Below, in pieces: positions 15,877-37,688 of a stretch of 40,022 bases of DNA. The stretch's first letter is position 1. Each line of letters opens with the position of its first letter. Location: positions 1-40,022 of the forward strand of contig JAQXDR010000062.1 of NCBI GenBank assembly GCA_029251265.1. The letters are read 5' to 3'. The stretch is from Pseudoprimorskyibacter sp. (lineage in GTDB: Bacteria; Pseudomonadota; Alphaproteobacteria; Rhodobacterales; Rhodobacteraceae). Both the position numbers and the translations under genes were made by a program. The notes under the pieces were generated by a model that saw nothing but the letters and a program-made list of their open reading frames with translations, was not told the DNA's origin and did no database searches.

Positions 15877-16923
15877 ATGGCTGAAATACAATTGCGTAAC
15901 CTAAGCAAGCGGTGGGGCAACTTTGTTGGGGTTGAGAAATTCGACCTGACAATTGCTGACAAAGAGTTCTTGGTTCTGCTTGGTCCATCTGGCTGTGGCA
16001 AGACCACCACTATGCGTATGATCGCAGGCTTAGAGGACGTCACTGATGGTGAGGTTTTGATTGATGGCCGCGTCGTGAATGATCTTGAACCCAAGGATCG
16101 AGATATTGCCATGGTGTTTCAAAGCTACGCCTTGTATCCGAATATGAACGTCTACGAGAACATTCGTTTCCCGCTTAAGGTGCGGGGCGTCGACGCTTCA
16201 ACCCATGATGAGAAAGTCATGCGCGCGGCCCGCATGGTCGAGTTGGAGCCTTTTTTGCACCGCAAGCCGGCAGAACTGTCGGGGGGGCAACGGCAGCGGG
16301 TTGCTCTGGCACGCGCGATCGTGCGCGAACCGAACGTGTTTTTGATGGACGAACCGCTTAGCAACCTTGATGCCAAGCTGCGGGTCAGCACACGCGCGCA
16401 GATCAAAAACCTCAGTCACGAACTGGCGGTGACGACCATTTACGTCACACACGACCAAATCGAAGCAATGACCCTCGCAGATCGTGTCGTTGTGATGAAA
16501 GAGGGGGTCGTTCAGCAAGTTGGCTCGCCTACCGAAATTTATGATCGGCCTGCAAACGCTTTTGTTGCCAGTTTTATAGGCAATCCGGCAATGAACCTTG
16601 TTGACGGCACAATGCTAAATGGAAATTTTTCAGCCGATGGCGTCGCTGTCGAAGGGCTCGGTGCTTTAGACGGGGCCGTAACGCTCGGGTTCCGCGCTGA
16701 AGATGCAGCTGTGGTTTTGGACGGTGGCCAGATATCGGCGCCGATCTATACACTTGAACTTTTGGGTGATGCGACGATGATCACGGTACGCATTGCGGGC
16801 GCGCTGGTATCGGTCAAAGCGGACAAAAGCTTTCGGGCTCAAATCGGGGATCCTATCCAGATATCCATTCCTAAAAACCATTGTCACCTGTTTGATGGCA
16901 AGATGGGACGCCGGATTGACTAA
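15877..16923 (+). CDS. ABC importer ATP-binding protein (MalK/UgpC type)
   Basis: This 348-residue ATPase energises a CUT1-like importer. It shows Walker [10 protein letters not shown] (36-44), Q-loop [10 protein letters not shown] (81-90), signature [14 protein letters not shown] (134-147), Walker B FLMDEP (155-160), D-loop SNLDAKLR and H-loop YVTHDQIEA. The C-terminal region (about 240-348) is the TOBE regulatory domain of MalK-type ATPases. It is followed by a binding protein and two permeases, so a complete importer is encoded. The family is annotated for sugars, but members in roseobacters also carry glycerol phosphates, polyols and other solutes, so the substrate is open. No strong Shine-Dalgarno is visible before ATG 15877. 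Confidence 0.93.
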
Positions 16924-17003: not shown

Positions 17004-18233
17004 ATGAAACTCAAGCATTTGTTCTTGACCAGCGCGGTCGCCGTAGCATCTGCGGGCACGGCTTGGTCGTGTGAAATTGGCGCGCGTGTCAGCATCGTTG
17101 GCAATGAATTTCCCGCGATTCAAACAGTTGGCGCCGAGGCCGCAGCCTGCAACGGGGCCGAGGTCTCAACAAACCTGACTGCGGATCACCAAAAGATAAA
17201 CCTACCAGGCATGCAGGGCAATCCCGCGGAATATACGTCTGCGATCGTGGCTAATTCGTCTATCGTGGCTTTGATGAATGAAGACGTCATTCGTCCGCTG
17301 GACGATCTTGTTGCCAAGCATGGGAGCGACCTTTCCAAAAGCCAACTTATTACCGTTGGTGGCAACGTAATGGCTGTGGCCTTCATGGCCAATGCACAGC
17401 ACCTTGTGTATCGGTCTGACGTTCTGGAACAGATCGGTGTCGAGCCACCCAAAACCTACGAAGAGCTACTCGCTGCCGCTAAGATGATCCGTGATCAAGG
17501 CATTTTGGAAAACCCTGTTGGTGGCGCATATGCAGCGGGATGGAACCTTGCACAGGAATTCAACAACATGTTCCTTGGGATGGGAGGTAGCCATTTCGAG
17601 GCCGGCTCAGCCGAGCCCAATGTGAATTCCGAGGCCGGCGTCAACACATTGATGATGATGAAAGAGTTGTCGGAATACATGAACCCCGACTTCCTGACCC
17701 ATGACAGCAACGCGACCAATGCAGAATTCCGCGCAGGCAACGTTGCGTTGATGAATATGTGGGGGTCGCGCGCAGCCACGCTGGTGGCAGCTGAAGGTAT
17801 CCCGCAAGAGGTTGTTGACGGTTTTGCCATTGCAGGTCCAATGACTGTGGGCGGCGGTGACACTCCAGCTTCGACACTGTGGTGGGACGGTTGGACTGTC
17901 GCGAAAAACATCAGTGACGAAGAAGCCGAGGCAACATTCGTTGCCATGATGAACGGGATCCGTCCTGAACTGATGGAAAATGAAGATGTGCGTCGTCAGG
18001 CTGTCTGGCTCATTGATGGCTACACGCCGACATCGGCTGCAATTGGCGTCTTTGCGGCGGCACAAGCGGGTACAATTCCCTATCCAATGCTGCCCTATAA
18101 TGGTCTGATGCATACCGCTCTTGGCGCCGAGCTTGCTGACTTCATGCAAGGCAAAGAGAGTGCCGAGCAGGCCCTTGCTGATGTCGAAGCAGCCTATCGC
18201 GCGGCCGCCAAAGAAAAAGGCTTCCTGAACTAA
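17004..18233 (+). CDS. ABC importer periplasmic solute-binding protein (family 1)
   Basis: The 409-residue protein starts with a Sec signal peptide (MKLKHLFLTSAVAVASAGTA, cleavage about residues 20-22) and continues as an extracellular solute-binding protein of the sugar-binding family 1. Typical segments are visible: YRSDVLEQIGVEPPKTYEELLAAAKMI near residue 135, GNVALMNMWGS near 248, a glycine-rich WWDGWTVAKN segment and a C-terminal helix ending AAKEKGFLN. GGGAG precedes ATG 17004. It lies between the ATPase and the permeases of the same importer and would set its substrate specificity. A Cys directly after the signal sequence is not in a canonical lipobox. Confidence 0.92.
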   Translation: MKLKHLFLTSAVAVASAGTAWSCEIGARVSIVGNEFPAIQTVGAEAAACNGAEVSTNLTADHQKINLPGMQGNPAEYTSAIVANSSIVALMNEDVIRPLDDLVAKHGSDLSKSQLITVGGNVMAVAFMANAQHLVYRSDVLEQIGVEPPKTYEELLAAAKMIRDQGILENPVGGAYAAGWNLAQEFNNMFLGMGGSHFEAGSAEPNVNSEAGVNTLMMMKELSEYMNPDFLTHDSNATNAEFRAGNVALMNMWGSRAATLVAAEGIPQEVVDGFAIAGPMTVGGGDTPASTLWWDGWTVAKNISDEEAEATFVAMMNGIRPELMENEDVRRQAVWLIDGYTPTSAAIGVFAAAQAGTIPYPMLPYNGLMHTALGAELADFMQGKESAEQALADVEAAYRAAAKEKGFLN

Positions 18234-18328: not shown

Positions 18329-19354
18329 ATGCGCCATAGAACCTTTTTCTGGTTTTTCCTGCCCACCGGGTTGGCAATGCTGCTGTTCATTGCCTTTCCC
18401 ATCGTGTCGGTGTTGGTTCAGTCGGTCTTTACCACGCACGAGGCAGTACTGGTTGAGGTCGAAAATTGTGGACCGTTTGGGTGCACTGTTGAAACGGCAG
18501 TGGATCATGATGCGACCGCGGCGAAACGAGCTGCTGAACCTTTGGGCCGCTTTGTTGGTCTGTCGGTCTACCTCGATCGCGGACATCTGGCAGTGACAGA
18601 AATAGCCGAACAATGGCACGCGTCCTCTGGGCTGGGTGATTTTATATCGCGCACTCAGAACCTGCCGTTCTATCGGGCGATCACTTTTACCTTAACGTTT
18701 ACATTTCTCGTGACACCTTTGTTGATCGCTTTGGGTCTGGTCGTGGCCCTTTCGGTCAATTCCTTGCACCGACGTCTCAAAGGGCTGGCGATCTTCTTTT
18801 CGCTCCTGCCGATGATTGTGACGCCGCTGATCGGATCGCTGATCCTGTTCTGGATGGTCGACAGCCGAGGTATTTTGGGTAGTTTCATTCAGTATATGGC
18901 GGACGATCCGTCGCTGAGCCTCAAGGCGTCAACGTCGCTGACATGGATCATGCTGATTGTATATGGTGTCTGGCATTCTGCGCCGTTTGCCTTCGTTGTG
19001 TTCTACGCCGGACTGCAAACCGTCCCGTCGGACCAGATCGAGGCCGCGCGTATCGACGGGGCAAACCGCTTATTGGTTGTACGCCATGTGATTGTACCGC
19101 ACCTCATGCCTCTGGTCACATTCGTGGCTTTAATCCAGTTGATGGATAACTTTCGCGTGTTAGAGCCATTGGTCGGCTTTAATGCGCAGGCACATGCTCA
19201 GTCCATCAGCTTGCTGATCCTGAATGATCTGAGCGGCGAAACCCAACAATTGTCCTCCGCCTCGGCCACCTCGGTTCTTACGATCCTTGGAGTGGCCATT
19301 CTGCTGTTACCCGTGCTGGTGCGCACGTGGCAAGATTTCAAGGGGAAAAAGTGA
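18329..19354 (+). CDS. ABC importer permease, MalF type
   Basis: This 341-residue inner-membrane permease has one N-terminal membrane segment (FWFFLPTGLAMLLFIAFPIV, residues about 6-26) followed by a periplasmic stretch with a Cys pair (NCGPFGC). About five further membrane segments follow from residue 110. The EAA loop that contacts the ATPase is seen as EAARIDGANRLLVVRHVIVP near residue 235. It pairs with the MalG-type permease, whose ATG overlaps its stop by one base (TGATG). Confidence 0.92.
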   Translation: MRHRTFFWFFLPTGLAMLLFIAFPIVSVLVQSVFTTHEAVLVEVENCGPFGCTVETAVDHDATAAKRAAEPLGRFVGLSVYLDRGHLAVTEIAEQWHASSGLGDFISRTQNLPFYRAITFTLTFTFLVTPLLIALGLVVALSVNSLHRRLKGLAIFFSLLPMIVTPLIGSLILFWMVDSRGILGSFIQYMADDPSLSLKASTSLTWIMLIVYGVWHSAPFAFVVFYAGLQTVPSDQIEAARIDGANRLLVVRHVIVPHLMPLVTFVALIQLMDNFRVLEPLVGFNAQAHAQSISLLILNDLSGETQQLSSASATSVLTILGVAILLLPVLVRTWQDFKGKK

Positions 19355-20235
19355 TGTCGTCAAAAGCGCTCCGTCCTCCTATGCCTTTGCGTTTGACCAT
19401 ATATGGTTTTGTGTCGATCTGGCTTTTCATGGCGGCGTTTCCGTTCATCTGGACGCTTTGGGGGTCGTTCAAGGTTGAACTCGATTTCTTTTCGATTGCC
19501 GATTGGACCAATGCGATCTTTGGCAGAAATACCCAAGATACGTATGGCACCGCCTTTACCGGGGCGGGATATCATGGCGCTTGGGTGCAAGAGGAGTTCT
19601 GGCGGGCCGTCATTAACACGGCGATTGTCTGTGTCTGCGTTGTGCTGACATCTTTGACGATTGGCACACTCGGCGGGTATGCGTTGTCGCGGTCTGGCTA
19701 TCGCTATACCTTTTGGCTGTTGATCCTTGCTCTGATTTTCAGGGCAATGCCACCGGTGACGTTGGTGGCGGGATATATGCTGCCCTTTTTTGAATGGAAT
19801 GTGTGGGGGATTTTGCCAACCACGATCGTCGTTTTGGTGGCGATCAATCAGCCATTCACACTTTGGATGCTGCACTCGTTTTTTCAAAATATCCCGAAAG
19901 AGCTTGATGAAAGTGCCAAGGTGGATGGTTGCACGCAATTTCAGGCGTTTCGCCATGTGATCATCCCAGTAATGTGGCCGGGTGTGATCACCACCGGATT
20001 GTTCAGTTTTCTGCTGGCGTATAACGATTTTGTCGTAACCTCGATGTTGCTGAGCGAACAGAACCGCACAATGGTGCCAGAGATCGCCGCGTTTTTGGGA
20101 ACCACATACACCGAAGGAAATGTCATGTTTGCGGTCGCGGCTGTGGTGTCCGCCACAGCGCCTCTGTTTGTCTTGGTCTTGTTTTTCCAACGGCAAATTG
20201 TGAGCGGGTTGACCGCCGGGGCTGTAAAAGGATGA
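19354..20235 (+). CDS. ABC importer permease, MalG type
   Basis: The second permease (293 residues) shows six predicted membrane segments, the first at IYGFVSIWLFMAAFPFIWTL. The EAA-type loop ESAKVDGCTQFQAFRHVIIP lies near residue 187. ATG 19354 is chosen because AGGGGAAA at 19341-19348 precedes it and it overlaps the upstream stop; a GTG at 19327 would add nine residues reading through the end of the previous gene. Its stop overlaps the start of a 45-residue small ORF (ATGA, 20232-20235), beginning a chain of coupled genes. Confidence 0.92.
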   Translation: MSSKALRPPMPLRLTIYGFVSIWLFMAAFPFIWTLWGSFKVELDFFSIADWTNAIFGRNTQDTYGTAFTGAGYHGAWVQEEFWRAVINTAIVCVCVVLTSLTIGTLGGYALSRSGYRYTFWLLILALIFRAMPPVTLVAGYMLPFFEWNVWGILPTTIVVLVAINQPFTLWMLHSFFQNIPKELDESAKVDGCTQFQAFRHVIIPVMWPGVITTGLFSFLLAYNDFVVTSMLLSEQNRTMVPEIAAFLGTTYTEGNVMFAVAAVVSATAPLFVLVLFFQRQIVSGLTAGAVKG

Positions 20236-20369
20236 CACCGTTGCAAGAGATGTTCACAAAGCCGCAGTTCTATATTTCGGTGTCGTCAAAACCCGGTCTG
20301 CACACACGGTCTTATTCCTATCCGATGGCCGGAGTAACCAGCCATACTTTTGAAAAGGACGTGTCATGA
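20232..20369 (+). CDS. Small 45-residue ORF coupled on both sides, unknown function
   Basis: This ORF fills the gap between the MalG-type permease and the next SnoaL gene exactly. Its ATG overlaps the permease stop (ATGA) and its TGA overlaps the next start (ATGA at 20366-20369). The product starts MTPLQEMFTKPQFYISVSS and ends HTFEKDVS, with no membrane segment or Cys motif and no family I recognise. The match at both borders supports a translated gene, or at least a coupling leader that carries ribosomes to the next gene. Chance cannot be excluded, since 46 open codons are not rare. No good Shine-Dalgarno of its own is seen, consistent with coupling. Confidence 0.45.
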   Translation: MTPLQEMFTKPQFYISVSSKPGLHTRSYSYPMAGVTSHTFEKDVS

Positions 20370-20890
20370 AGGGATCGCGCCCAACACAGGCCGCACTGAG
20401 CCGTGATACGGATATGACAAAAACCGATCAGACACGCGCAGTAATTGAGGGAATGGTTGATGGGCTGAATGACCATCGTATTGACGATATCGGAGATTTT
20501 TTCGCCCAAGGTTTTCGTTGGATGGGCAATACCGGATGTGGCACGAAACGCGGATTGCAAGAATTTCAGGATAACTGGCAACGCCCCTTTCAGGCAGCTT
20601 TTTCCGACAAGGTCTGCGTGGACGAAGCCCGCCTGTTCATGGGGGAATGGGCTGCAGCCTTTGGGCGGCAAGAGGCAACTCACTCAGGCACCTTTATGGG
20701 GGTCGCGCCGACAGGCAAGCGTATTCAAATCCGGTATATGGATTTTTGGAAAGTAGAAGAGGGCAAGATCTCCGACAATTGGGTCATGGTGGATTTTCCG
20801 CATGTTTTGGCGCAACTGGGCGTTGATGTCTTTAACGGCGAAGGCTGGGAAGCCTTTGATAAAGGCGAAAGGGTTGCGCCTGCGCCATGA
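20366..20890 (+). CDS. Single-domain SnoaL/NTF2-like protein (paralogue B)
   Basis: The 174-residue product is one SnoaL-like domain corresponding to the second domain of its longer neighbours. The motif RWMGNTGCG (51-59) occupies the place of W-Y-G-P-x-G-x-G, then RPFQAAF (73-79), TGKRIQIRYMDFWKVEEGKI and the closing NWVMVDFPHVLAQLGVDVF. AAAGGA lies before ATG 20366, and MTKTDQ at residue 17 is a possible internal start. The stop overlaps the start of the next SnoaL gene (ATGA). The tight pairing of single- and two-domain paralogues suggests they form hetero-oligomers or act in sequence; that is inference. Catalytic function is unknown. Confidence 0.85.
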   Translation: MKGSRPTQAALSRDTDMTKTDQTRAVIEGMVDGLNDHRIDDIGDFFAQGFRWMGNTGCGTKRGLQEFQDNWQRPFQAAFSDKVCVDEARLFMGEWAAAFGRQEATHSGTFMGVAPTGKRIQIRYMDFWKVEEGKISDNWVMVDFPHVLAQLGVDVFNGEGWEAFDKGERVAPAP

Positions 20891-21939
20891 CCCTTTTGAC
20901 TGCAAAATCGAAAGCGCATCGCTTTTTGGCTGCCCAATCCAGGCCGGGAATTGATCGGGCGCGTTCTGCTGCACAAGCGTTTATAGCATCAGATGCAAAG
21001 ATCCAGATCGTGCATCCTTTTAACGATTTGTCGGGTGTTGACGGCTACGTCGATGGGTTTCTGTCCAGCCTTCACGCCAGCTTCTCAAATCTGACACGTC
21101 GCACGGATATTCTGATCGGGGGCAATTTTGACGATAGTGCTTGGGTCTCGTGTCACGGGTATTTCACGGGAAATTTTACGGCTGATTGGTTGGGGCTGAC
21201 GCATTCGAACCGGTTGGAATTTATGCGCTATGGGGAATTTTTTCGGATTGAGGATGGTCAAGCGGTTGAGGTTACCGGCTTTCTGGACATTCCACAGCTG
21301 ATGTGTGCGACTGGCCAATGGCCCATCCATGACAGCCCGGGTACGACGCGTGGATACGTGGGTGTCATGCCAGGGCCCGCCACGCAAGACGGATTGGTTC
21401 TGACCGATCAAGCCGACGACATCACAAACCGCACGCTGGATATTGTTGAAACAATGCTGCGCGGCTTGGGACATGATGATGAAACGTGGCGTGCGGATTG
21501 GCACGACGATATGATGTGGTATGGACCTGCCGGTTTTGGTGCGTTTTCTGGTCTGGCCGACTTCAGTAGTTTTCAGGTTCCGTTTGAGCAGGCGTTCGAT
21601 ACATGGTCTGGGGGATTGTCAGGAAATGGGATCACGCGACATTTCACGCGTTTTGCGGATGGTCACTATGCCTGCATCGCAGGATGGCCATCGCTCATGT
21701 GCAAGCGTCGCCACAGCTTTCTGGATCAACCTTCTGATGATCAGACAGTCTACATGCGGGTTTGTGACTGGTGGCGTCGCGACACCGATAAGTTGGCTGA
21801 AAACTGGGTGCTGGTAGATCTGCCAGATGTTCTTTTGCAGATGGGGTGTGACCTGTTTGAAGGATTTCATGACCAGCCCTCTGGCCCACGGAAAATGATA
21901 CCAGCCGCGCGGGCGGTAGACGACATGAAAGGATCTTAA
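20887..21939 (+). CDS. Two-domain SnoaL/NTF2-like protein (paralogue C)
   Basis: This 350-residue protein has the same two-domain layout as paralogue A: domain 1 to about residue 145 (ending [16 protein letters not shown]), linker with PGPATQDGL (162-170), and domain 2 with WYGPAGFG (211-218) and the C-terminal [23 protein letters not shown]. Conservation of the W-Y-G-P motif and of an acidic His/Asp stretch just before it ([13 protein letters not shown]) suggests a retained active site. It overlaps paralogue B by 4 bp and ends 1 base before the hisD-like gene, so it belongs to the coupled chain. The substrate is unknown. Confidence 0.85.
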
Positions 21940-21940
21940 G

Positions 21941-23251
21941 ATGCCGGTTGAATACCTGAAGTCCTCAAAATCGCAACAAGACCGGGCAGAGGAAGATGCC
22001 AAGGTTGCTGATATTGTGAAGTCTGCGCTGGCCGATATCGAGGCGAGAGGCGATGTCGCTGTCCGCGAGATGTCGGTTGGGTTCGACAAGTACGACCGTG
22101 CCAGTTACCGATTGACGCAACCTGAAATCGACGCCCTGATGGAGCAGGTGTCTGACCGCGACATGCAGGATATCAAATTCGCACAGGAACAGGTCCGCAA
22201 TTTCGCGCAGGCGCAGCGCGACAGTATGCGTGATATAGAGGTGGAGACATTGCCCGGTGTGATTTTGGGTCACAAAAACATACCTGTTCAATCAGTGGGA
22301 TGCTATGTCCCGGGTGGCAAATTTCCAATGGTCGCATCAGCGCATATGTCGGTGGCAACTGCTGCGGTCGCAGGCGTGCCACGCATTATTGCCTGCACGC
22401 CGCCCTTTAAGGGTCAACCCAATCCTGCCGTGATCGCAGCCATGCAACTGGGTGGCGCGCATGAAATCTACGTGCTGGGCGGAATTCAGGCTGTTGGTGC
22501 CATGGCCATTGGCACTGCCAGTATCGACCCGGTGCATTTATTGGTCGGTCCCGGAAATGCCTTTGTTGCAGAAGCCAAACGGCAGCTTTTTGGACGGGTG
22601 GGTATTGATCTGTTCGCTGGACCCACCGAAACCATGGTTATTGCCGACGATACGGTAGATGCAGAGCTTTGCGCGACGGATTTGCTGGGGCAGGCGGAAC
22701 ACGGCTACAACAGCCCCGCGGTTTTGTTGACCAACAGTCGTAAACTGGCGACTGAAACACTTGCCGAAATAGACCGGTTGCTTGAAATTCTCCCAACATC
22801 GGAAACTGCGGGTGCGTCATGGCGTGACTACGGCGAAGTCATCCTGTGCGATACTTACGAAGAGATGCTGACCGTCGCAGATGACATTGCCTCTGAACAT
22901 GTGCAGGTGATGACGGATCGCGATGATTGGTTTTTGGAGAATATGACCTGCTACGGAGCCCTGTTTCTGGGCGCACGCACCAATGTCGCAAACGGGGACA
23001 AGGTCATTGGCACCAATCACACGTTGCCCACAAAAAAAGCGGGCCGCTACACTGGTGGTCTTTGGGTTGGTAAATACCTGAAAACACATAGCTACCAAAA
23101 GATTCTGACCGATGAAGCTGCGGCCATGATCGGGGAATACGGATCGCGATTGTGTATGCTAGAGGGGTTCGTCGGCCACGCCGAACAATGCAATATTCGC
23201 GTGCGTCGCTACAGTGGCAAAAACGTTCCGTATGGAGCCGCCGCAGAATGA
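21941..23251 (+). CDS. HisD-family dehydrogenase (histidinol / sulfopropanediol dehydrogenase-like)
   Basis: The 436-residue enzyme belongs to the zinc-dependent, NAD-linked histidinol dehydrogenase family, which oxidises an alcohol to an acid in two steps. The catalytic and metal residues all appear intact: Gln 251 and His 254 (GQAEHGYNS), Glu 319-His 320 (SEHVQVM), Asp 353 ([14 protein letters not shown]) and His 413 (EGFVGHAEQ). No histidine-biosynthesis gene is nearby. Paralogues used in catabolism, such as sulfopropanediol dehydrogenase HpsN, have this length, and the SnoaL/ABC/LacI context points to a catabolic role. No sulfolactate-degradation genes (suyAB) are seen, so dihydroxypropanesulfonate is not implied. 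Its start follows the SnoaL stop by one base, and its end overlaps the next SnoaL gene (ATGA). Confidence 0.88.
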
Positions 23252-24276
23252 GTGACGCAAACCAACGCAACAAAGCCCGGGCGGCTGCATGGTGGGCAGA
23301 AATAGATGGCGCTCGCCCTCACGAAATGGGGCAGCTTTCGCGTGCGCACCTTGCCGATGCTGTGGTCTGGCAGGGATTTCAGCCGGTGGGTGACCTGATC
23401 GGCGGTCAGGCGATATCACAATCGGTTCTTGCACCATTGAAACGTGCCTTCGATGGCTTGCAACGACAGGTGCATATCCTGATGGGGGGTGCATCGGATG
23501 GACGGGCAAACGGTTCCACAGATGGGGCCATGTGGGTTGGGGCAACCGGTTATTTATGCGGTGTGCAGACGGGTGATATTTGGGGCATTCCGGCACGCAA
23601 CACGCGTGTGCGCCTGAGATGGAGCGAATTTCTCGAATTCGACGAACAGGGGCGGATTATCCGGATCCAGTGTCTGATTGATGTGATTGACTGGTTGGAA
23701 CAAATTGGTTTGTCGCCTTTGCCGGTCGCGCGCGGGGCCCCTTTCGTCTATCCGGCACCGACGGGGATTGATGGGATCCTGACACTGGCTCAGGACCCCG
23801 GGCGGAGTGCAGACACCTTGCGATTTGCACGTCGTTTTATCTTTGACGGTTTGAACGGATTTGATCGCGAACAGCTCAATAGCATGAATATGGCCGGATT
23901 TTTTCATCAAAACCTGAAATGGTACGGACCGGGTGGCATTGGGGCATGTCTGAGTTTTGCCGAGTTCGAAGACCTTCATCAGCGGCCATGGCTGGCTGCA
24001 TTTCCAGACCGTCAGGTTGGTGATCTGGATAACCTTATTGCCGAGGGCGATTTTGTCGGGGCCTCCAGCCTGCCAGGAGTGTGGTTGACCCATAGCGGCC
24101 CCTATCTTGGTCAGTCTGCAAGCAATAAACGCGCCAGTGTGAACGGGATCGATTTTTGGCTGCGAAAGGGTGATGAATTCGTCGAAAATTGGGTCTTCGT
24201 GGATATGGTCCACCTGTTCCAGCAATTCGGTGTAGATTTGATGGCGCGGGTTGCACATATGTCGGGGCTACGATGA
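23248..24276 (+). CDS. Two-domain SnoaL/NTF2-like protein (paralogue D)
   Basis: This 342-residue protein repeats the architecture of paralogues A and C: domain 1 to about residue 155, a linker [10 protein letters not shown] (169-178), then domain 2 with WYGPGGIG (225-232) and the closing [20 protein letters not shown]. Domain 1 departs most from the others ([28 protein letters not shown]), so it may have specialised. ATG 23248 overlaps the hisD-like stop (ATGA); upstream in-frame GTG codons run into that gene and are not credible. Its stop overlaps a 94-residue ORF of unknown function. Confidence 0.83.
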
Positions 24277-24557
24277 CCGACCAAAATAGTGCAACAGGCG
24301 TTCTGGAAATCTGTTCATTCAGGCCGCTGACAGGGCGGTTCCGGAAAGCATGCGTGAACATGTCTTGGAAGTGGCATAAGGTATCGAGACCGACAGGTGT
24401 TTGCACAGGGGGTCCGTATCAAGACACGGCGCACCCAGAAGGAAATCTTAATCCGGACACGTCGACACATGCCCATGCGCCAACGACGAGGTGCTGCGTT
24501 GGGATATCGCACGGGATGCAGGGCAAAGGTGACTTGATCGAAAGGTTTGTGCAATGA
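24273..24557 (+). CDS. Hypothetical 94-residue ORF bridging SnoaL and SDR genes
   Basis: The ORF begins at the ATGA that ends paralogue D and ends at the ATGA that begins the SDR gene, so it fits exactly into the coupled chain. The product ([19 protein letters not shown]..., ending DLIERFVQ) is rich in Arg, Cys, His and Thr, has no membrane segment and matches no family I recognise. A CC pair and a THAHAP stretch could bind metal, but that is speculation. The composition is less typical of a soluble enzyme, so a degenerated gene remains possible. A 79-residue reading frame on the opposite strand over the same bases is taken as a shadow. Confidence 0.4.
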   Translation: MTDQNSATGVLEICSFRPLTGRFRKACVNMSWKWHKVSRPTGVCTGGPYQDTAHPEGNLNPDTSTHAHAPTTRCCVGISHGMQGKGDLIERFVQ

Positions 24558-25321
24558 CCCAACTCCCCTCTACCCCGTCATTTCGACTAGAGGGCCGCCG
24601 TGCTTTGGTTGCGGGCGCGTCTTCTGGGATTGGCGAAGCCTGCGCAGTTGCTCTTGCAGAGGCTGGGGCGAATGTCACGGTGGCAGCGCGCAGAACTGAC
24701 AAACTGGACCAATTGGTTCGCGCAATGGCCGATCGTGGATGGCGGTCCGATGCGCTGACCATGGATGTGACCGATGTGGCCTCTACGCAGGCAAAAGTTG
24801 CCCAGTCAGGGCCATATGATATCCTCGTCAACTCTGCCGGTTTGGCCCGGCATGCGCCTGCGTTGGACACCCGGCCAGATGACTATGACGCTGTGACCGA
24901 TCTGAATGTCCGCGGAGCCTATTTTTTGACACGCGCAGTTGCTGCCGGGTTGGTCGAGGCCGGAAAGCCGGGGTCATTGATAAATATCTCAAGCCAGATG
25001 GCCCATGTGGGGGGGATCGACCGTGCCGTCTATTGCGCGTCAAAACACGCCGTTGAGGGGTTCACAAAATCCATGGCGATTGAATGGGGCCGCATGGGCA
25101 TTCGTGTCAATACGATATGCCCGACCTTTATTCGCACGGCCCTCGCTGCTGTCACATTGGAAAACCCGGATCGCCGCGCTTGGATCGAAGATAAGATCAA
25201 GCTGGGCCGCGTGGGTGAAGTCGAAGATATCATGGGCGCAGTTGTCTTTCTTAGTTCGGATGCGAGTGCGTTGATCACGGGGTCTTCGTTGATGATTGAT
25301 GGTGGGTGGACCGCAGAATGA
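24554..25321 (+). CDS. SDR-family oxidoreductase of the SnoaL cluster
   Basis: This is a 255-residue classical SDR with the GASSGIG cofactor motif at 21-27, NSAG near residue 94, catalytic Ser in NISSQM near 146, Tyr 160 and Lys 164 in YCASK, and the C-terminal ITGSSLMIDGGW. The Arg in VAARRTDKLD after the second strand suggests NADP preference, but this is only indicative. It would oxidise a hydroxyl or reduce a carbonyl in the unknown pathway. ATG 24554 overlaps the previous ORF, and its stop overlaps the next small ORF (ATGA 25318-25321). Confidence 0.9.
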   Translation: MTQLPSTPSFRLEGRRALVAGASSGIGEACAVALAEAGANVTVAARRTDKLDQLVRAMADRGWRSDALTMDVTDVASTQAKVAQSGPYDILVNSAGLARHAPALDTRPDDYDAVTDLNVRGAYFLTRAVAAGLVEAGKPGSLINISSQMAHVGGIDRAVYCASKHAVEGFTKSMAIEWGRMGIRVNTICPTFIRTALAAVTLENPDRRAWIEDKIKLGRVGEVEDIMGAVVFLSSDASALITGSSLMIDGGWTAE

Positions 25322-25590
25322 TATCTTTGGCCGATCGCGTTCTTGATCTGTACGCCTTGGATACGCCACAAGAGGCTCTTGTTCTTTGGCAGATCATGCC
25401 ATCTGACGTGCGTATGGTGTTACGTCGGCTTTATTGGTGTGAAGGCGCTGCAGCCTTGCTCAATAAGATCGGATTTTATCTGTGCAACGAGCGGTGGTCC
25501 ATTACCCCATACCCACCGGAATTGCGCCAAGATTTAGATCTACATGTGCGCGCGCAGCTGACCGTATTTGTGAAGAACAATCATGTCTGA
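25318..25590 (+). CDS. Small 90-residue protein of unknown function
   Basis: The ORF starts inside the SDR stop (ATGA) and ends 8 bases into the LacI gene, so it occupies the gap exactly. The product (MISLADRVLDLYALDTPQEAL...) looks like a normal, mostly helical soluble protein with amphipathic Leu/Ala-rich stretches and single Cys residues at CEG and LCNE. I do not recognise the family. Its composition is more protein-like than that of the 94-residue ORF, which makes it the best supported of the three small ORFs. Its place next to the regulator could mean a regulatory or accessory role. Confidence 0.6.
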   Translation: MISLADRVLDLYALDTPQEALVLWQIMPSDVRMVLRRLYWCEGAAALLNKIGFYLCNERWSITPYPPELRQDLDLHVRAQLTVFVKNNHV

Positions 25591-26608
25591 GGGGCGCAGT
25601 ATCACATCTTTGGATGTCGCAAAGCGTGCCGGGGTCAGTCAATCGGCGGTAAGCCGGGTGTTTACACCCGGGGCCTCTGCCTCGGCGAAGACTGCGGAAA
25701 AAGTAAAAGCGGCGGCTGCCGAACTTGGCTATCGTCCCAATGTACTTGCCCGCGCCATGGTTTCAGGAAAAAGCCGGATTATCGGCTTGGTGGTCGCCTA
25801 TCTGGATAACTATTTCTACCCCGAGGCGATGGAGCTTTTGTCGAATGCGCTGCAAGAGCGCGGCTACCACGTGTTGATTTTCATGGCCACTCAGACAGCC
25901 GGTAATATCGATGATGTTGTCGAGGAAATACTGGACTATCAGGTTGATGGCATTGTGGCTGCCAGCGTGGCATTATCATCAAACTTATCCGCACGGTGCC
26001 GGGCCGCCGACGTACCGATCGTTCTGTTTAACCGCCGTCAGGATGACAGCGACATGTGGTCGGTTACGTCAGATAATTTTGGCGGCGGTCGCAAGGCTGC
26101 GCAGCATTTTCTTGAATGTGGCTACGATCGGATCGGCTATATCGCTGGCTGGGAGGGGGCATCGACCCAGCGGGATCGAGAAGCAGGGTTTCGTGCCGGA
26201 TTAGAAGCCGCTAATCGAACCCTTCATTGTCGCGATGTTGGTAATTTTCGCATGGACGAGGCCGCGAACGCGGCTCGGCGCCTGCTGCGGCAGGACGAGC
26301 CGCCAGATGCAATTTTTGTTGCGAACGACCATATGGCTTTTGCCGTCATGGACGTTGCCCGCAGTGAATTTGACCTGAAGGTGCCGGAGGATCTGGGAAT
26401 TATGGGCTACGACGATGTGCCAGTCGCCTCTTGGCCTGCATATGATCTGACAACCATACGACAACGCGCGCGACGGATGGTCAGCCGGACAGTGGATATC
26501 TTGTTGAATGAAATTGAAGGGTATCCTGGTGACCCAATGCAGGAAACGATCTGCGGCCCGCTGATCACACGCGGGTCTACCCGTTTGCAAAAAGGAAGGC
26601 GTTCATGA
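25583..26608 (+). CDS. LacI-family transcriptional regulator
   Basis: The 341-residue regulator has an N-terminal LacI helix-turn-helix (about residues 7-55: SLDVAKRAGVSQSAVSRVF followed by the hinge helix ELGYRPNVLARAM) and a periplasmic-binding-protein-like effector domain (IIGLVVAYLDNYFY to GPLITRGSTRL). It probably senses the imported substrate or an intermediate. The target is likely the cluster it sits in; a symmetric 14-mer with central CG at 15777-15790 is the best operator candidate. It lies within the coupled gene chain: start overlapping the small ORF by 8 bases, stop overlapping the next SnoaL gene (ATGA), so it may control its own operon. Confidence 0.93.
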   Translation: MSEGRSITSLDVAKRAGVSQSAVSRVFTPGASASAKTAEKVKAAAAELGYRPNVLARAMVSGKSRIIGLVVAYLDNYFYPEAMELLSNALQERGYHVLIFMATQTAGNIDDVVEEILDYQVDGIVAASVALSSNLSARCRAADVPIVLFNRRQDDSDMWSVTSDNFGGGRKAAQHFLECGYDRIGYIAGWEGASTQRDREAGFRAGLEAANRTLHCRDVGNFRMDEAANAARRLLRQDEPPDAIFVANDHMAFAVMDVARSEFDLKVPEDLGIMGYDDVPVASWPAYDLTTIRQRARRMVSRTVDILLNEIEGYPGDPMQETICGPLITRGSTRLQKGRRS

Positions 26609-27573
26609 AGGGGTTCTCTGACAAGTTCAAAGATCTGCCAGACTATATTATTGGCATTACAAAAGAAATCTGGGAAGATCGCGGGATTGCCACACTGCAT
26701 GATTATTATGCTGCCGACATAATTGTGCGATCACCAGATGCGATTGTTCAAGGCAATCAGGGGGTCATTGCGGCCACAATGGCAACTTTGGCTGAATTTC
26801 CTGATCGCACGCTGTTTGGTGAAGATGTGATTTGGTCAGGCACACCGGAACAAGGAATGTTGTCGTCGCACAGGTTGCATTCTACGGCGACCCATGTCGG
26901 CTCAGGCGTTTACGGAGAGCCTTCGGGAAAACGTCTGACCTATCGGATTATCGCGGATTGTCATGCGATCAACAACCAGATCAATGATGAGTGGCTGATC
27001 CGGGATCAGGGCGCAATTGTGCGTCAGTTGGGATGGGATCCCAAGGCCTTTGCGGCAGATATGATCGAGCGACAAGGCGGGGCGGATCGCTGCCAGCATC
27101 CTTTTGTCCCATCTGATGACATCAATGGTCCCTACACAGGTCGGGGAAACGACAATGAATGGGGCATGCGATATGCGTCCATTCTGGGTAGGATCATGGG
27201 GGCGGAGTTCTCAGTCATTGCTGACGAATATGATCGTGCCGTTAATTTGGAACTGCCGGGTGGGTTTTCGGCCATCGGACACGATCAAGCAGACCGTTTC
27301 TGGATGGGTTTGCGTGCAAGCTTTCCCAATGCCGTGTTCAAGGTTCATCACCAGATCGGTCGCGAGGACCCGATGATGCCGCCTCGTGCTGCGTTAAGGT
27401 GGTCCTTGCAGGGAGCGCATGACGGTTGGGGTCGATTTGGGGCCCCATCGGGTGCGCAAGTCCATGTGATGGGGATTTCCCATGCTGAATTCGGGCCATG
27501 GGGTCTGCGCCGCGAATATACATTGTTTGATGAAACCGCGATTTGGAAACAGATCCTACTTCATACAGGATGA
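26605..27573 (+). CDS. Two-domain SnoaL/NTF2-like protein (paralogue E, divergent)
   Basis: The 322-residue protein is again two SnoaL-like domains, but closer to the ester-cyclase/hydratase-type branch. Domain 1 (about 1-155) contains TLHDYYAADIIVRSPDA and SGKRLTYRIIADCHAINNQINDEWLIRDQ. Domain 2 (about 165-322) contains LHT-like ends and GAQVHVMGISHAEFGPWGLRREYTLFDE. The W-Y-G-P motif and the PxPxTxDG linker of paralogues A, C and D are not seen, so it is a separate lineage rather than a recent copy. It is the last gene of the chain and overlaps the LacI stop (ATGA). About 150 bases then separate it from the cupin operon. Confidence 0.8.
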   Translation: MKGFSDKFKDLPDYIIGITKEIWEDRGIATLHDYYAADIIVRSPDAIVQGNQGVIAATMATLAEFPDRTLFGEDVIWSGTPEQGMLSSHRLHSTATHVGSGVYGEPSGKRLTYRIIADCHAINNQINDEWLIRDQGAIVRQLGWDPKAFAADMIERQGGADRCQHPFVPSDDINGPYTGRGNDNEWGMRYASILGRIMGAEFSVIADEYDRAVNLELPGGFSAIGHDQADRFWMGLRASFPNAVFKVHHQIGREDPMMPPRAALRWSLQGAHDGWGRFGAPSGAQVHVMGISHAEFGPWGLRREYTLFDETAIWKQILLHTG

Positions 27574-27724: not shown

Positions 27725-28693
27725 ATGACACAGACTGAAATGGACGCTCGTATCGTCCGCTATGGAGACCTTCGTCCCTGTCGCACAGCCTTTATTGACG
27801 CCCACACCCCCGGCAGTGATCAGAAAGAAAACTTTACGATCATCGGTGGCGGAGTCAGCGAAAGTGTTGATCAACACGTGCACATCACTGACGCTTTGGG
27901 GTTTAACATTGGCGCTGCGGGTCAGCCGCCGAAATGCCGCAACAGCTTGCACAGTCATCGCACAGCCGAGGTGTTTTTTGTACTCAAGGGACGCTGGCGG
28001 TTTTTCTGGGGCCGATGGGGTGCCGCAGGAGAAGTGGTTTTGGAAGAAGGTGACATTATCAACATTCCAACAGGCATCTTCAGAGGCTTTGAAAATATCG
28101 GCACCGATTACGGAATGATCATGGCGATCCTTGGTGGCGATGATGCAGGAGGCGGTGTGATATGGGCGCCGCAGGTGATTGCTGATGCGGCGGAGCATGG
28201 TCTGGTTCTTGCCGAGACCGGCCGGCTGTATGACACGAAAAAAGGGGAGCACCTGCCTGATGGTGTATCGCCCATGCCGATGCTGACGACGGACGCGCTG
28301 GATAAATTTCCCGAGCTGTCGGGCGCCGACGTTGTGCCAAACCATGTGGCCCGCTACTGGGATCTGATGGCCTTGGCTGCAAACAGCCCAGCCAAGGTGA
28401 TTGGCGAAACGGGCAAATTGGTAGATAGACCTGGCTTTGAGGTAGACTTTCTAACCCGTGGATCGCTGGTGGACGATGCTGTCCAAAGCTCCGATCAACA
28501 TACCGTTTTGATGATAATGCGAGGCCATTGGCGTCTGAATCGGTCTGGCGGATCTACCGTTTTGAACCCTGGCGATACGGCCGCAATTCCCCGTGCAGAG
28601 GAATACAGTCTAAAACCCGCCATGACTGGTGAGGCAAGCCTTTATCGCGTAGTGTCGACAGATGATCCTGCAGGAGAAACCTGGAAGAAATGA
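27725..28693 (+). CDS. Two-domain cupin protein
   Basis: The 322-residue protein holds two cupin (beta-barrel) domains. The first has the canonical motif H-x-H-x3-E-x6-G at His 76, His 78, Glu 82 and Gly 89 (SLHSHRTAEVFFVLKG), but the second motif GDIINIPTGIFRGFEN has Arg where the fourth ligand (His) is expected. The second domain (HTVLMIMRGHWRLN..., near 265-300) lacks obvious metal ligands. Such bicupins include dioxygenases, isomerases and non-enzymatic ligand binders; the missing His makes a typical dioxygenase less certain. GGAGGA precedes ATG 27725. The stop overlaps the membrane-protein gene (ATGA), so this begins a second operon of the cluster. Confidence 0.82.
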   Translation: MTQTEMDARIVRYGDLRPCRTAFIDAHTPGSDQKENFTIIGGGVSESVDQHVHITDALGFNIGAAGQPPKCRNSLHSHRTAEVFFVLKGRWRFFWGRWGAAGEVVLEEGDIINIPTGIFRGFENIGTDYGMIMAILGGDDAGGGVIWAPQVIADAAEHGLVLAETGRLYDTKKGEHLPDGVSPMPMLTTDALDKFPELSGADVVPNHVARYWDLMALAANSPAKVIGETGKLVDRPGFEVDFLTRGSLVDDAVQSSDQHTVLMIMRGHWRLNRSGGSTVLNPGDTAAIPRAEEYSLKPAMTGEASLYRVVSTDDPAGETWKK

Positions 28694-29889
28694 CAATCGT
28701 CGTCAACGTCGACAAACTGGAACAAGAAGGCCATATCAACCGTGATTTGGCAAATCTCATGCGTGACAGGGCACGAGAGGCGATGATCGCTTTGGTTGTT
28801 AATTTATTGCTCAGTATGGGCATTTTGGCAGCAACTGGCGGTCTACTTTTGTGGCTGGCTGACGCTGCATTGGTGGCTTTGGCGGGATTGGCGTTCTTGC
28901 TTGTCGGTGCTTTGGTATTGGTAAGGTTTCAAAGCGATCTACGCTTCTTTGGCCGTGCGGCCGTTTTGATTGGCGCGGCAACGCTTTTGGGCGGCGCGGG
29001 TTTTGAATTTATAGACAAGCTGCCCGATGATGCTGCCATTTTGCTGGCTTTGGTTGGTGCAATAGCAGCCGTTGGGGCTGCTGCCGCCTTTTGGCGGTGG
29101 GGGGATCAGGAACGGTTTGTTTTGGGCTGTGTGATGCTCATGGGGCTGGGTATGCATCTGTTCGGATTGGGCTACGGGTTGGAGGATATGCAATCTCATC
29201 CAGCGCTTATTCGTGCCACGTTGATGTATGCAGCGGTGCTGTGGGCCTTTGCCGGATGGTATCTTGATCTGCGGTTTATCACGGCTCTTGCGATATTGCC
29301 TTTTGCCGAGATCTTGGGTGCACGAACCTATTATTTTTTCGGCGGATACGCGGTTTCATCGCCCGAAAGCACACTGACCATTGTACAGATGTCCTTGGCA
29401 GTGGTGTTCTGCGTCTGGTGGGCAGGACGGGTCAACCAACGCCATGCGCGCCATTTCATGATCTTGGCTTTGCTGGCGTTTGTGGTGGCCAACCTGGCCG
29501 CGCTGATTGGGTCAATCGTCGGAGACGAGGTCGGTCTGTATGTCTGGGGTCCGCGTTACGAAGATTTCCAATCTCAGGATGACGCGTGGGCACGCTTTCG
29601 TTACGCAAAAGAGGCATTCAGCGAGACCGCTGTGATCATTTCAGAGCGCGTCTACTCAGTGGTTTGGGCCATTGCTTTGGCGGGCTTGGTGCTTTGGGCT
29701 GCAGTGACGTCTCGGCGGGGCCTGTTCAATGCAGGCATCACCTTTGCCTGTATTCATGGCTACACCCAATTGTTTGAAACATTCTATGACGAACCTCTGG
29801 CCTATGTTGTGGGCGGGCTTTTTACGATCCCATTGGCGTGGGGCGCGCGACGACTGAACCAACGCCTGAAAGCCATGGAAACCGAATAA
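28690..29889 (+). CDS. Polytopic membrane protein (DUF2157-like)
   Basis: The 399-residue protein has a short N-terminal cytoplasmic helix (VDKLEQEGHINRDLANLMRDRARE) followed by about ten hydrophobic segments from residue 32 to 390 and a basic C-terminus (RRLNQRLKAMETE). The N-terminal helix followed by paired membrane segments resembles the poorly characterised DUF2157 family. There is no transporter or enzyme signature I can name. It overlaps the cupin gene by 4 bp and is 18 bases upstream of the MetE-like gene, so co-expression is likely; a link to the substrate pathway is only contextual. Confidence 0.75.
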   Translation: MTIVVNVDKLEQEGHINRDLANLMRDRAREAMIALVVNLLLSMGILAATGGLLLWLADAALVALAGLAFLLVGALVLVRFQSDLRFFGRAAVLIGAATLLGGAGFEFIDKLPDDAAILLALVGAIAAVGAAAAFWRWGDQERFVLGCVMLMGLGMHLFGLGYGLEDMQSHPALIRATLMYAAVLWAFAGWYLDLRFITALAILPFAEILGARTYYFFGGYAVSSPESTLTIVQMSLAVVFCVWWAGRVNQRHARHFMILALLAFVVANLAALIGSIVGDEVGLYVWGPRYEDFQSQDDAWARFRYAKEAFSETAVIISERVYSVVWAIALAGLVLWAAVTSRRGLFNAGITFACIHGYTQLFETFYDEPLAYVVGGLFTIPLAWGARRLNQRLKAMETE

Positions 29890-29907: not shown

Positions 29908-31023
29908 ATGGTCAAAACGACCCATGTTGGCAGCTTGCCACGCACTCAGAACATTGTCGATTTTATCTTCGCTCGCGAGAATGACGAGCCGTATGATCAG
30001 ACCGCCTTTGATGCTGCTATGTCATCTGGTGTGGATGAGACCGTGCGAAAACAGGTCGATGCCGGGATAGGTATCGTATGTGATGGCGAGACATCCAAGA
30101 TTTCTTATGCCACCTATGTCAAAGATCGCTATACTGGCTTTTCGGGCGACAGTCCGCGGAATGCGCCGGCCGATCTCAAGATGTTTCCCGGTTTTTTGAA
30201 ACGTCTGGCGAATGATGGTGGAACACCGCAATATGCGCGGCCGATGTGCACCGGTGAGGTGGTCAGCAAAGGGCAGGGCGAATTAGAAAAAGACATCTCT
30301 AATCTGACCGCAGCCATGGCCAAGCATGGGGCAGATCATGGGTTCATGAATGCCGCATCCCCAGGGGTGATATCGTTGTTTTTACAAAATGATTTTTATG
30401 CCACCCGCGACGCGTATCTCGCGGCCTTGGCTGATGCGATGAAGGCGGAATATGAAACCATCGTTGGCGCGGGATTGGACTTGCAACTTGATTGCCCGGA
30501 TCTGGCGCTTTCGCGACATATGCTGTTCAATGATCTCAGCGATGCGGAGTTTATAAAGATCGCAGATATGCACGTCGAAGTGCTAAATTATGCCCTTAAA
30601 AACGTGCCGCAAGACAAGGTGCGCGTGCATATATGTTGGGGCAATTACGAGGGTCCGCATTGTTGCGACATTGCGATGGACAAGGTCTTTACGACGCTGA
30701 TGAAAACCAAGTCGCGCTATGTTTTGTTCGAAACTTCGAACCCACGGCATGCCCATGAATGGACTGTATTTCGCGACCGAAAAAGTGAAATTCCAGATGA
30801 CAAGGTGTTGGTGCCGGGCGTGGTTGATACAACGACCAACTTCGTGGAACATCCAGACGTTGTGACGCAACGCATTGAACGGTTCACCGATATTGTTGGG
30901 AAAGAGCGTGTGATCGCTGGCAGTGACTGTGGTTTTGGAACCTTTGCGGGCTTTGGGGCGGTGGATCCTGACATTGCCTATGCAAAATTGCGCGCCTTGT
31001 CAGACGGTGCCGCCCAAGTATGA
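29908..31023 (+). CDS. Stand-alone MetE C-terminal-type (cobalamin-independent) methyltransferase or thiol transferase
   Basis: The 371-residue protein is a single MetE C-terminal-like barrel (UROD/MetE fold) with no N-terminal MetE domain, about half the length of full MetE. The zinc ligands expected for thiol activation are intact: His 241 and Cys 243 (VRVHICWGNYEG), Glu 275 (VLFETSNPRH) and Cys 341 (AGSDCGFGTF). Relatives are short core-MetE methyltransferases and epoxyalkane:coenzyme M transferases, so it may move a methyl or another alkyl group between the pathway substrate and a thiol. Methionine synthesis is possible but unexpected here. AAAAGGA precedes ATG 29908; its stop overlaps the hydrolase start (ATGA). 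A demethylase role next to THF-dependent SoxBDAG is inference. Confidence 0.85.
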   Translation: MVKTTHVGSLPRTQNIVDFIFARENDEPYDQTAFDAAMSSGVDETVRKQVDAGIGIVCDGETSKISYATYVKDRYTGFSGDSPRNAPADLKMFPGFLKRLANDGGTPQYARPMCTGEVVSKGQGELEKDISNLTAAMAKHGADHGFMNAASPGVISLFLQNDFYATRDAYLAALADAMKAEYETIVGAGLDLQLDCPDLALSRHMLFNDLSDAEFIKIADMHVEVLNYALKNVPQDKVRVHICWGNYEGPHCCDIAMDKVFTTLMKTKSRYVLFETSNPRHAHEWTVFRDRKSEIPDDKVLVPGVVDTTTNFVEHPDVVTQRIERFTDIVGKERVIAGSDCGFGTFAGFGAVDPDIAYAKLRALSDGAAQV

Positions 31024-31712
31024 CGCCATTGGTTCTTTTGCCCGGCATGATGTGCGATGCGCGGCTTTTCACGCCCCAGATAGAGGCGATTTCGTCCGAT
31101 TGTGCGGTGATGACTGCCCCCATCCATGGGCATGACAGGATCGAGGCGCTGGCTGCTGATGTCTTGGCATGGGCCCCGCCGCGGTTTGCACTTGCCGGGC
31201 TGTCCATGGGCGGCATTGTCGCCATGGAGGTATTGCGTCAGGCACCAGACAGGATTGATCGCATCGCGCTTTTGGACACAAACCCAAGAGCCGAAGACCA
31301 ATCCGTTCAGGCGTCCCGAAAGCCGCAAATTGAAAAGGTTCTTGCGGGCGGTCTTTGGGATGTCATGCGCAATGAGCTTAAACCAAACTATCTGACCGAT
31401 GGTCTGAACAGGGGCGCCATTCTGGATTTGTGCATGAAAATGGCCGACGCCTTGGGACCAGAGGTCTTTGTCCGGCAGTCTCTGGCCTTGATGCACCGGC
31501 CCGATCAAACAAAAACGTTAGAGGCCGCGAAGCTGCCGGCTTTGGTCCTGTGTGGACGTGACGACGCGCTGTGTCCTGTTCACAGGCATGAATCCATGCA
31601 TGCATTGCTTGCCGGATCCAGCCTGACGATACTGGAGGGGGCAGGGCATTTGCCGACGCTGGAGCAGCCCGAGGCAACGACCGATGCGTTGCGGGGCTGG
31701 CTGGCACAGTGA
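31020..31712 (+). CDS. Alpha/beta-fold hydrolase
   Basis: This compact 230-residue alpha/beta hydrolase has the nucleophile elbow GLSMGG (Ser 62), an acid at Asp 181 or 182 (LCGRDDALCP) and a catalytic His 210 (GAGHLPTLEQPE). The oxyanion region is LLPGMMCD near the N-terminus. The small size, with only a modest cap (about 95-165), is typical of esterase- or lactonase-like members. It overlaps the MetE-like gene by 4 bp and is the last gene of that operon, so it may hydrolyse an ester or lactone intermediate produced by the SnoaL or dehydrogenase enzymes; the specific substrate cannot be told. Confidence 0.85.
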   Translation: MTPLVLLPGMMCDARLFTPQIEAISSDCAVMTAPIHGHDRIEALAADVLAWAPPRFALAGLSMGGIVAMEVLRQAPDRIDRIALLDTNPRAEDQSVQASRKPQIEKVLAGGLWDVMRNELKPNYLTDGLNRGAILDLCMKMADALGPEVFVRQSLALMHRPDQTKTLEAAKLPALVLCGRDDALCPVHRHESMHALLAGSSLTILEGAGHLPTLEQPEATTDALRGWLAQ

Positions 31713-34492: not shown

Positions 34493-34500
34493 TCCGATCG

Positions 34501-34561
34501 CCCTGAACACATGTTTAGGGGAAGGCCCGACCAAAAGACAGCAAACTGTCTTCTATCGGCC
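34501..34561 (+). promoter_or_regulatory. Structured intercistronic segment between coxG and coxS
   Basis: Two adjacent hairpins can be drawn. The first, at 34501-34520, pairs ccct with aggg and continues inward through a G-T wobble. The second, at 34535-34552, is a perfect 7-bp stem (aagacag, loop caaa, ctgtctt) nested in an outer ggcc-cga / tcggcc pairing at 34524-34561. No T-tract follows. They may stabilise the message or adjust the coxG to coxS ratio. Confidence 0.45.
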
Positions 34562-34591
34562 ATGTTGAAAAGAACCTAGGGAGGACTTTTT

Positions 34592-35077: not shown

Positions 35078-35311
35078 TACGGTACTCTTGTGGTGCACGA
35101 AAAGATCCGGACATCTGCGATAAATACGTTGCAATGGCCACGCTCGAGGTGGTCGCACACGTACACGTCTCTTAAGGGGCGCCAAAATTCGCTAACCGGT
35201 AGCTTTTTCAGGCAATGACATTTTGGGGTGATCACTATCACACCAATCGAATGGCCCGCACAACTCAGGTACCTGAAAGACTGATAACGTATATCAACAG
35301 AGAGGAACATC
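35078..35311. other. Unusual 234-base gap between coxS and coxL
   Basis: coxS and coxL are normally adjacent or overlapping. Here the gap holds no convincing reading frame and no clear terminator; I see no insertion-sequence signature or target duplication. It may contain an extra promoter or represent a small insertion. Confidence 0.5.
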
Positions 35312-37675: not shown

Positions 37676-37688
37676 CAACAGGGACTAC

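Follow-up and report, generated by a model that had tools for sequence, protein, structure and literature searches.

Zinc-dependent homocysteine methyltransferases with the MetE fold are already known as a kind of enzyme. In the betaine-homocysteine methyltransferase/Bmt/MmuM family (PF02574), the methyl group of a small metabolite is transferred to zinc-bound homocysteine; the MetE-like protein described here would work alike, but it belongs to PF01717 and has no PF02574 match. The core methionine synthases (Mes) MesA to MesD, as presented in the available part of their description (PMC7857596), consist like the MetE-like protein of a single catalytic MetE domain with zinc and homocysteine residues. 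The MetE-like protein differs from them in forming its own clade among the rows sampled, in its N-x-[R/C]-H-x-H-[E/D] motif and in its location in a putative catabolic operon. The aromatic O-demethylases LigM and DesA may share with it the catabolic removal of O-methyl groups, but according to the available text of PMC8091115 they belong to the unrelated aminomethyltransferase family and use folate as the acceptor.

Proteins of the MetE-like family are annotated as cobalamin-independent methionine synthases, and the role that core-MetE homologues have in aerobic marine bacteria has been called questionable (PMC12478193, available part). The orthologue by synteny in Phaeobacter inhibens, PGA1_c27430, has been studied in a paper whose available text does not discuss its operon or substrate (PMC12366255), and apart from that mutant no description of the family in a catabolic operon was found among the matches listed in the open-licence literature. 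Our analysis sets the family apart as a distinct clade marked by a motif of its own and links its Roseobacter members to one operon of predicted catabolic function, and the role of these proteins is testable because a published P. inhibens deletion strain exists.

Domain composition and active-site residues

Within the window (the whole stretch of DNA that was analysed, 40,022 nucleotides from Pseudoprimorskyibacter sp.), the MetE-like protein (Table 1) has Meth_synt_2 (PF01717; 40.1 bits against a cut-off of 21) as its sole Pfam match, and it is the only PF01717 match in this genome. The preliminary description had read it as the C-terminal half of MetE with intact zinc ligands, and this reading is confirmed: the Pfam search found no N-terminal folate domain of MetE in its 371 residues, and the His, Cys, Glu and Cys read from the translation at positions 241, 243, 275 and 341 align with H641, C643, E665 and C726 of E. 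coli MetE. S9, E61 and D195 align with Ser433, Glu484 and Asp599, the homocysteine-binding side chains of E. coli MetE (PMC7857596, available part), and with the zinc ligands they make up the residue set of core methionine synthases. Orthologues with at least 67% identity occur in 49 of 149 genomes taken as a sample of the bacterial family (below, the family genomes), the window's own among them, so the open reading frame is real, far beyond chance.

Conservation was followed in an alignment of 115 sequences, made up of the window protein and 114 relatives, several of them near-identical; relatives aligned over fewer than 300 residues, shorter than 340 aa or containing stops had been excluded before this count. 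H241, C243 and C341 are present in all 115 sequences and E275 in 114, while E61 and D195 are present in 115 and S9 in 114, and all seven functional MetE residues are retained in relatives ranging from Roseobacters to haloarchaea. In a 32-row alignment, H6, R74, R239, P250, N278, H281 and H283 are invariant. An AlphaFold model, computed with the window protein and 33 rows taken from the loci of relatives as input, has a mean pLDDT of 81 and a pTM of 0.85, with low confidence at residues 84-98, 104-107, 248-250 and 345-350. Its best matches in the PDB are Thermotoga maritima MetE, the Shewanella structure 3RPD and further MetE structures.

The zinc and homocysteine residues are as in MetE and MesA to MesD, and the core-MetE proteins characterised so far make methionine (PMC7857596, available part), which would suit an ordinary core methionine synthase, that is, a further Mes family that receives its methyl group from a corrinoid protein, methylcobalamin or a general donor and merely accompanies the operon. 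We consider this unlikely, although it deserves attention. The protein scores below the cut-offs of all NCBIfam methionine synthase models, with PRK04326 as the best (78.6 bits against 406), and reaches 24.4 bits against a cut-off of 541 with PRK05222. Furthermore, its gene is carried by only 49 of the 149 family genomes, 45 of them with the cupin gene of the same operon (the MetE-like gene occurs without the cupin gene in 4, the cupin gene alone in 5, and neither in 95).

The acceptor thiol

The preliminary description had also proposed alkyl transfer of the kind catalysed by epoxyalkane:CoM transferases (EaCoMT), in which a methyl or alkyl group would pass to a thiol other than homocysteine. 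For comparison we used a plasmid-encoded protein of Nocardioides JS614, which we take to be the epoxyalkane:CoM transferase EtnE, as its position between a monooxygenase gene and ligase/CoA-transferase genes also suggests. The MetE-like protein is 29% identical to this candidate against 18% to E. coli MetE, and both contain a WGNYxG stretch after the zinc Cys; the candidate also keeps the zinc ligands and the Asp of the homocysteine site. However, at the positions of MetE Ser433 and Glu484 the candidate, the one EaCoMT row aligned, has Asn and Lys, whereas in the MetE-like family the first is Ser in 114 and the second Glu in all of 115 sequences. The gene context is different as well: the genes annotated in the operons of four Roseobacter plasmids include neither a monooxygenase nor a ligase or CoA-transferase. 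The Asn and Lys of the candidate, set against the conserved Ser and Glu, disfavour CoM-type transfer, which we regard as very improbable, and make homocysteine the likely acceptor thiol. No PF01717 match was found on plasmid pMYCCH.01.

Gene neighbourhood of the MetE-like gene

Table 1. Features of the window around the MetE-like gene; homologue counts refer to the 65 well-flanked loci
Feature	Coordinates	Strand	Remarks
Carnitine-type genes	124-3329		beta-keto acid cleavage enzyme, SDR, 3-hydroxyacyl-CoA dehydrogenase fused to thioesterase domain
Divergent protein	14743..15741	-	two SnoaL-type stretches
ABC importer ATPase, MalK/UgpC type	15877..16923	+	TOBE domain; homologues annotated UgpC
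ABC importer solute-binding protein	17004..18233	+	SBP_bac_1
ABC importer permease 1	18329..19354	+	54/65
ABC importer permease 2	19327..20235	+	59/65
SnoaLa, single SnoaL-domain protein	20366..20890	+	174 aa; Pfam; 61/65
SnoaL-domain protein	20887..21939	+	350 aa; Pfam
HDH, histidinol-dehydrogenase-like protein	21941..23251	+	GKFPM replaces HpsN GRY[AS]H; 64/65
SnoaL-domain protein	23248..24276	+	ATG at 23248 (start predicted from sequence) overlaps HDH stop; longest ORF from 23152
SDR, short-chain dehydrogenase	24554..25321	+	64/65
LacI-family regulator	25583..26608	+	65/65
SnoaLd	26605..27573	+	two SnoaL-type stretches; Pfam; 65/65
Cupin protein	27725..28693	+	322 aa; Pfam; 65/65
Hydrophobic protein	28690..29889	+	between cupin and MetE-like gene; no Pfam match; 0/65 (40% identity, 60% coverage)
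Core-MetE-like protein	29908..31023	+	371 aa; ATG start; zinc ligands H241, C243, E275, C341; homocysteine-site S9, E61, D195; family motif ETSNPRHAHE at 275-284
Alpha/beta hydrolase	31020..31712	+	start overlaps MetE-like stop (ATGA); 58/65
CoxG, CoxS, CoxL, CoxM-type molybdenum hydroxylase genes	34040-38577		downstream, outside conserved operon

A scan of one genome per species (84,980 species) gave 414 places encoding relatives. The best 80 of the 414 were kept, and 65 of these 80 had at least 9.5 kb upstream and at least 2.5 kb downstream, loci with shorter flanks being set aside. Homologues in the loci were counted at thresholds of 40% identity and 60% coverage. The HDH, SDR, LacI, SnoaLd and cupin genes occur all together in 63 of the 65 loci, which come from the closest relatives, conservation further out being lower. 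An RraA-type gene is present in 58 loci, a gene for a SAM-dependent methyltransferase in 21 and a GMC oxidoreductase gene in 6. Among the 49 family genomes with the MetE-like gene, 36 have the cupin gene within 3 kb on the same contig. The MetE-like gene of Roseobacters lies in one conserved operon, and this operon appears from its gene content to be catabolic. The view expressed earlier that the enzyme acts outside methionine synthesis is supported by this context, short of biochemical proof. In the window, the RraA gene does not adjoin the operon, and the closest homologue in the genome (59%) is found on another contig beside a SnoaLd paralogue.

A plasmid of Roseibium aggregatum (L164:1349-15669) carries homologues of the importer, HDH (81% identity), SDR (67%), LacI (56%), cupin (76%), hydrolase (60%) and RraA (73%) genes in the same order. 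The MetE-like gene is absent from this operon stretch and from the plasmid, to which the search was confined. The gene therefore looks optional, an extra step joined to a core pathway, which is what one would expect of a demethylase.

Several loci contain additional genes. In L082 (13382-13984), a gene for a SAM-dependent methyltransferase, with homologues in 23 of the 80 loci, is situated between the cupin and MetE-like genes. Such an enzyme is an odd partner for a demethylase, and the demethylase reading leaves it unexplained. Divergent ester cyclase genes precede the importer in L082, L090 and L091 as they do in the window. In L048 (12859-21063), the first cluster is followed by a second importer/SnoaL/LacI cluster, which has no MetE-like gene in the fetched stretch and possibly serves a related substrate.

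Clade, family motif and distant relatives

The comparison with MetE, core-MetE and EaCoMT sequences called for in the preliminary description was made in a maximum-likelihood tree with 11 outgroup rows: E. coli MetE, the EaCoMT candidate, four PRK09121-like, three PRK04326-like and two PRK06520 rows (9 of 12 outgroup-candidate stretches were used, and ten rows of an earlier tree were left out). A branch with support of 100/99 has all 23 family rows on one side, which makes them a clade apart from the rows sampled in a tree that covers no named MesA to MesD sequence and has long outgroup branches with some joins flagged as unsure. This position, too, argues against an ordinary methionine synthase. 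The same branch keeps the family apart from the four PRK09121-like rows and thus speaks against a place in the MesD clade, as far as these rows, which at 250-268 bits against a cut-off of 392 are loose stand-ins for MesD, can represent it.

The family motif N-x-[R/C]-H-x-H-[E/D] lies just behind the zinc-Glu position in 23 of 23 family rows and in none of the 11 outgroup rows. Among the family rows, Arg is replaced by Cys in L084, the zinc Glu by Pro in L154 and S9 by Asn in L157. We infer that R280, H281 and H283, which are close in sequence to the zinc ligand Glu275, may bind the methyl donor.

A sphingomonad clade is sister to the Roseobacter clade (93/91), and its context is methoxy-group metabolism. 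A gene of the aminomethyltransferase family, named LigM/DesA-type here after its family and neighbours, is found near the MetE-like gene in seven of the eight sphingomonad rows (all but L144). These neighbourhoods often include MTHFR, purU or folD, and some contain LigAB or LigK genes. In Croceicoccus, genes annotated as ligA, ligK and 4-oxalomesaconate tautomerase lie near the MetE-like gene, and dihydroneopterin aldolase genes do so in some rows of the clade.

These neighbours, the LigM-type, MTHFR, purU, folD and dihydroneopterin aldolase genes, would also be compatible with a donor methyl group carried on folate or a pterin, which a LigM-type O-demethylase elsewhere would have supplied, the MetE-like protein then recycling folate during growth on methoxy compounds. 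But the protein has no folate-binding N-terminal domain, and none of the 65 well-flanked Roseobacter-type loci contains a LigM-type or MTHFR homologue in the fetched stretches, which leaves folate recycling with little probability.

Outside these clades, parts of the operon persist in G155, a proteobacterium from a different class (73%), and in G428, an alphaproteobacterium from a different family (60%). In the haloarchaeon Halobellus, the MetE-like gene is preceded by an ABC importer and by five SnoaL-type ester cyclase genes. Around the MetE-like genes of the haloarchaeal loci L093 and L094 and of Rhodococcus L089 the operon was not found, and the function of such distant members may therefore vary. 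On plasmids of Rhodococcus and Dietzia (L085:9686-16348 and L086:9699-16335), the MetE-like gene is adjacent to 2-oxoglutarate oxygenase, PhyH and HD-domain genes, and these oxygenase/HD-domain pairs presumably resemble phosphonate oxygenase pairs.

A proposed homocysteine-dependent demethylase and its possible pathway

The explanation we favour, with about even chances of being right, is that the MetE-like protein is a zinc methyltransferase which uses homocysteine as the acceptor; the methyl group would come directly from whatever compound the operon breaks down, or from an intermediate early in its degradation. The family-specific residues would hold the donor, and its methyl group would be attacked by zinc-bound homocysteine thiolate; the products would be methionine, as a by-product, and a demethylated alcohol or enol, which would enter the pathway. 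We infer that the operon substrate is the methyl donor, that the methyl group is on oxygen and that the transfer is direct; the substrate is perhaps an O-methyl cyclic enol. A substrate with an O-methyl group is suggested by the methoxy context in sphingomonads and by the fact that the operon can occur without the gene. Demethylation of the pathway substrate had been proposed before, and it is plausible for a zinc-competent core-MetE protein encoded in a putative catabolic operon. Against a demethylase, none of the Roseobacter operon genes is proven to encode an enzyme acting on methoxy compounds, and methyl-folate could be the donor in sphingomonads. If the demethylase reading is true, the methyl group of the substrate would pass to homocysteine and enter the methionine cycle directly, with neither folate nor B12 involved.

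Clues to the pathway come from other genes of the operon. The closest PDB match of the HDH protein is HpsN (397 bits), and its E319, H320, D353, Q251, H254 and H413, aligned with the catalytic and zinc residues of HpsN, are conserved in 71 of 71 rows. The HpsN motif GRY[A/S]H contains the sulfonate-binding His126 (PMC11382572, available part). All 71 HDH rows have GKFPM instead, with Met at this diagnostic His, and GKFPM appears to be a third HDH motif beside those of HisD and HpsN. With the catalytic residues kept and GKFPM in place of the sulfonate motif, HDH probably acts on a non-sulfonated compound, oxidising a CH2OH group that adjoins a carbinol. A dihydroxypropanesulfonate pathway was considered because of the likeness to HpsN and is not supported: every one of the 71 rows has Met for the HpsN His, and sulfolactate lyase is not annotated in four plasmid operons. 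HDH homologues are also found on plasmids of Rhizobium, Sinorhizobium, Sulfitobacter and others (37 records with 80-90% and 85 records with 60-80% identity), and an SDR gene follows HDH in four of the five plasmid stretches viewed.

The cupin protein matches Cupin_2, Cupin_1 and, weakly, other Pfam families. Its H76, H78 and E82 are invariant in 78 of 78 rows, and the usual fourth His is replaced by an invariant R120. It has no Pfam match to the acireductone dioxygenase family, membership of which was rejected; any likeness would be in action only. The RraA-type proteins share a GE...RDxxD stretch in 13 of 13 operon rows aligned, which we take to be the motif of RraA-type proteins. The RraA family also includes non-aldolases, and the PDB sequence matches of the operon protein are weak, with none named aldolase; it is a putative aldolase.

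One substrate class that would bring these enzymes together is that of mycosporine-type sunscreens or gadusols, from which the MetE-like enzyme would remove the ring methoxy group. The mycosporine core, 4-deoxygadusol, is a ring with an O-methyl group on a reductone enediol and a tertiary alcohol bearing CH2OH. Demethylation would unmask a cyclic acireductone, the cupin would split the ring as acireductone dioxygenase does, and HDH would take CH2OH to COOH. The product would be 4-carboxy-4-hydroxy-2-oxoadipate, which a LigK/RraA-type aldolase would cleave to pyruvate and oxaloacetate; this compound is a substrate of LigK/RraA-type aldolases. We regard this assignment as a rather long shot, and no report of a mycosporine-degrading gene set of this kind was found among the matches listed in the open-licence literature. 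Should the substrate prove to be a mycosporine, the genes responsible for the loss of marine sunscreens would be named.

Methionine supply and the Phaeobacter mutants

Published deletion primers place PGA1_c27430, by matching in related loci, between the cupin and hydrolase genes. One primer encodes AFIDAH, as in the cupin; 20 of its bases match exactly in 8 of the 149 family genomes, and in seven of these eight the site precedes a MetE-like gene by 0.9 to 2 kb. Three of the six primers match in Phaeobacter italicus, with 4, 2 and 3 mismatches, at sites approximately 1 kb ahead of the MetE-like gene, immediately behind it and approximately 1 kb behind it; for the remaining three there is no match at up to 5 mismatches. 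In the window, only the AFIDAH primer matches in place, with 2 mismatches. On this primer synteny, PGA1_c27430 is taken as the orthologue of the MetE-like gene of the window.

According to the available text of PMC12366255, deletion of PGA1_c27430 (called 'Mes-like') gave a mutant that still showed DMSP-dependent lag shortening, and a bmt mutant with the mes-like gene intact needs methionine, with low residual growth. An mtgCDE mutant of P. inhibens is likewise a methionine auxotroph despite its core-MetE homologue (PMC12478193, available part). That both mutants need methionine although the gene is present speaks against an ordinary synthase, whereas the leaky growth of the bmt mutant, ascribed by its authors to a possible second synthase (PMC12366255, available part), speaks for one and could come from the MetE-like gene, which would count against the demethylase. 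The genome of the window has two PF02574 matches, one of them beside a B12-binding match on contig C90, and this homocysteine methyltransferase and B12-binding protein fit a split B12-dependent methionine synthase. The auxotrophy of the bmt mutant with PGA1_c27430 intact, together with this candidate, suggests a demethylase.

Sarcosine-oxidase-like and carnitine-type genes upstream

The preliminary description had placed the enzyme in a marine osmolyte pathway, presumably because of genes upstream of the MetE-like gene: a sarcosine-oxidase-like pair at a distance of 16 to 20 kb and carnitine-type genes at 26 to 30 kb. This assignment (carnitine, sarcosine) is not supported: such genes are not conserved at four plasmid loci with flanks of 14 to 20 kb, which show only weak family matches of 21 to 29% identity. 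The sarcosine-oxidase-like pair was found in 1 of the 65 loci, a count of little weight since most flanks are 10 kb and stop short of the gene positions. The alpha-subunit family occurs in 137 of the 149 family genomes, and its best match outside the window is 50% identical, against at least 67% for the 48 MetE-like orthologues, among the matches listed. On the six contigs carrying both, the alpha subunit and the MetE-like gene are 33 to 115 kb apart, again among the matches listed. In favour of an osmolyte link, both sarcosine-oxidase-like subunits are encoded downstream in L036, at no more than 10 kb. In the genome of the window, another locus (L186:6030-16674) combines SnoaLd and RraA paralogues with a glycine-betaine-type importer and paralogues of the two sarcosine-oxidase-like subunits.
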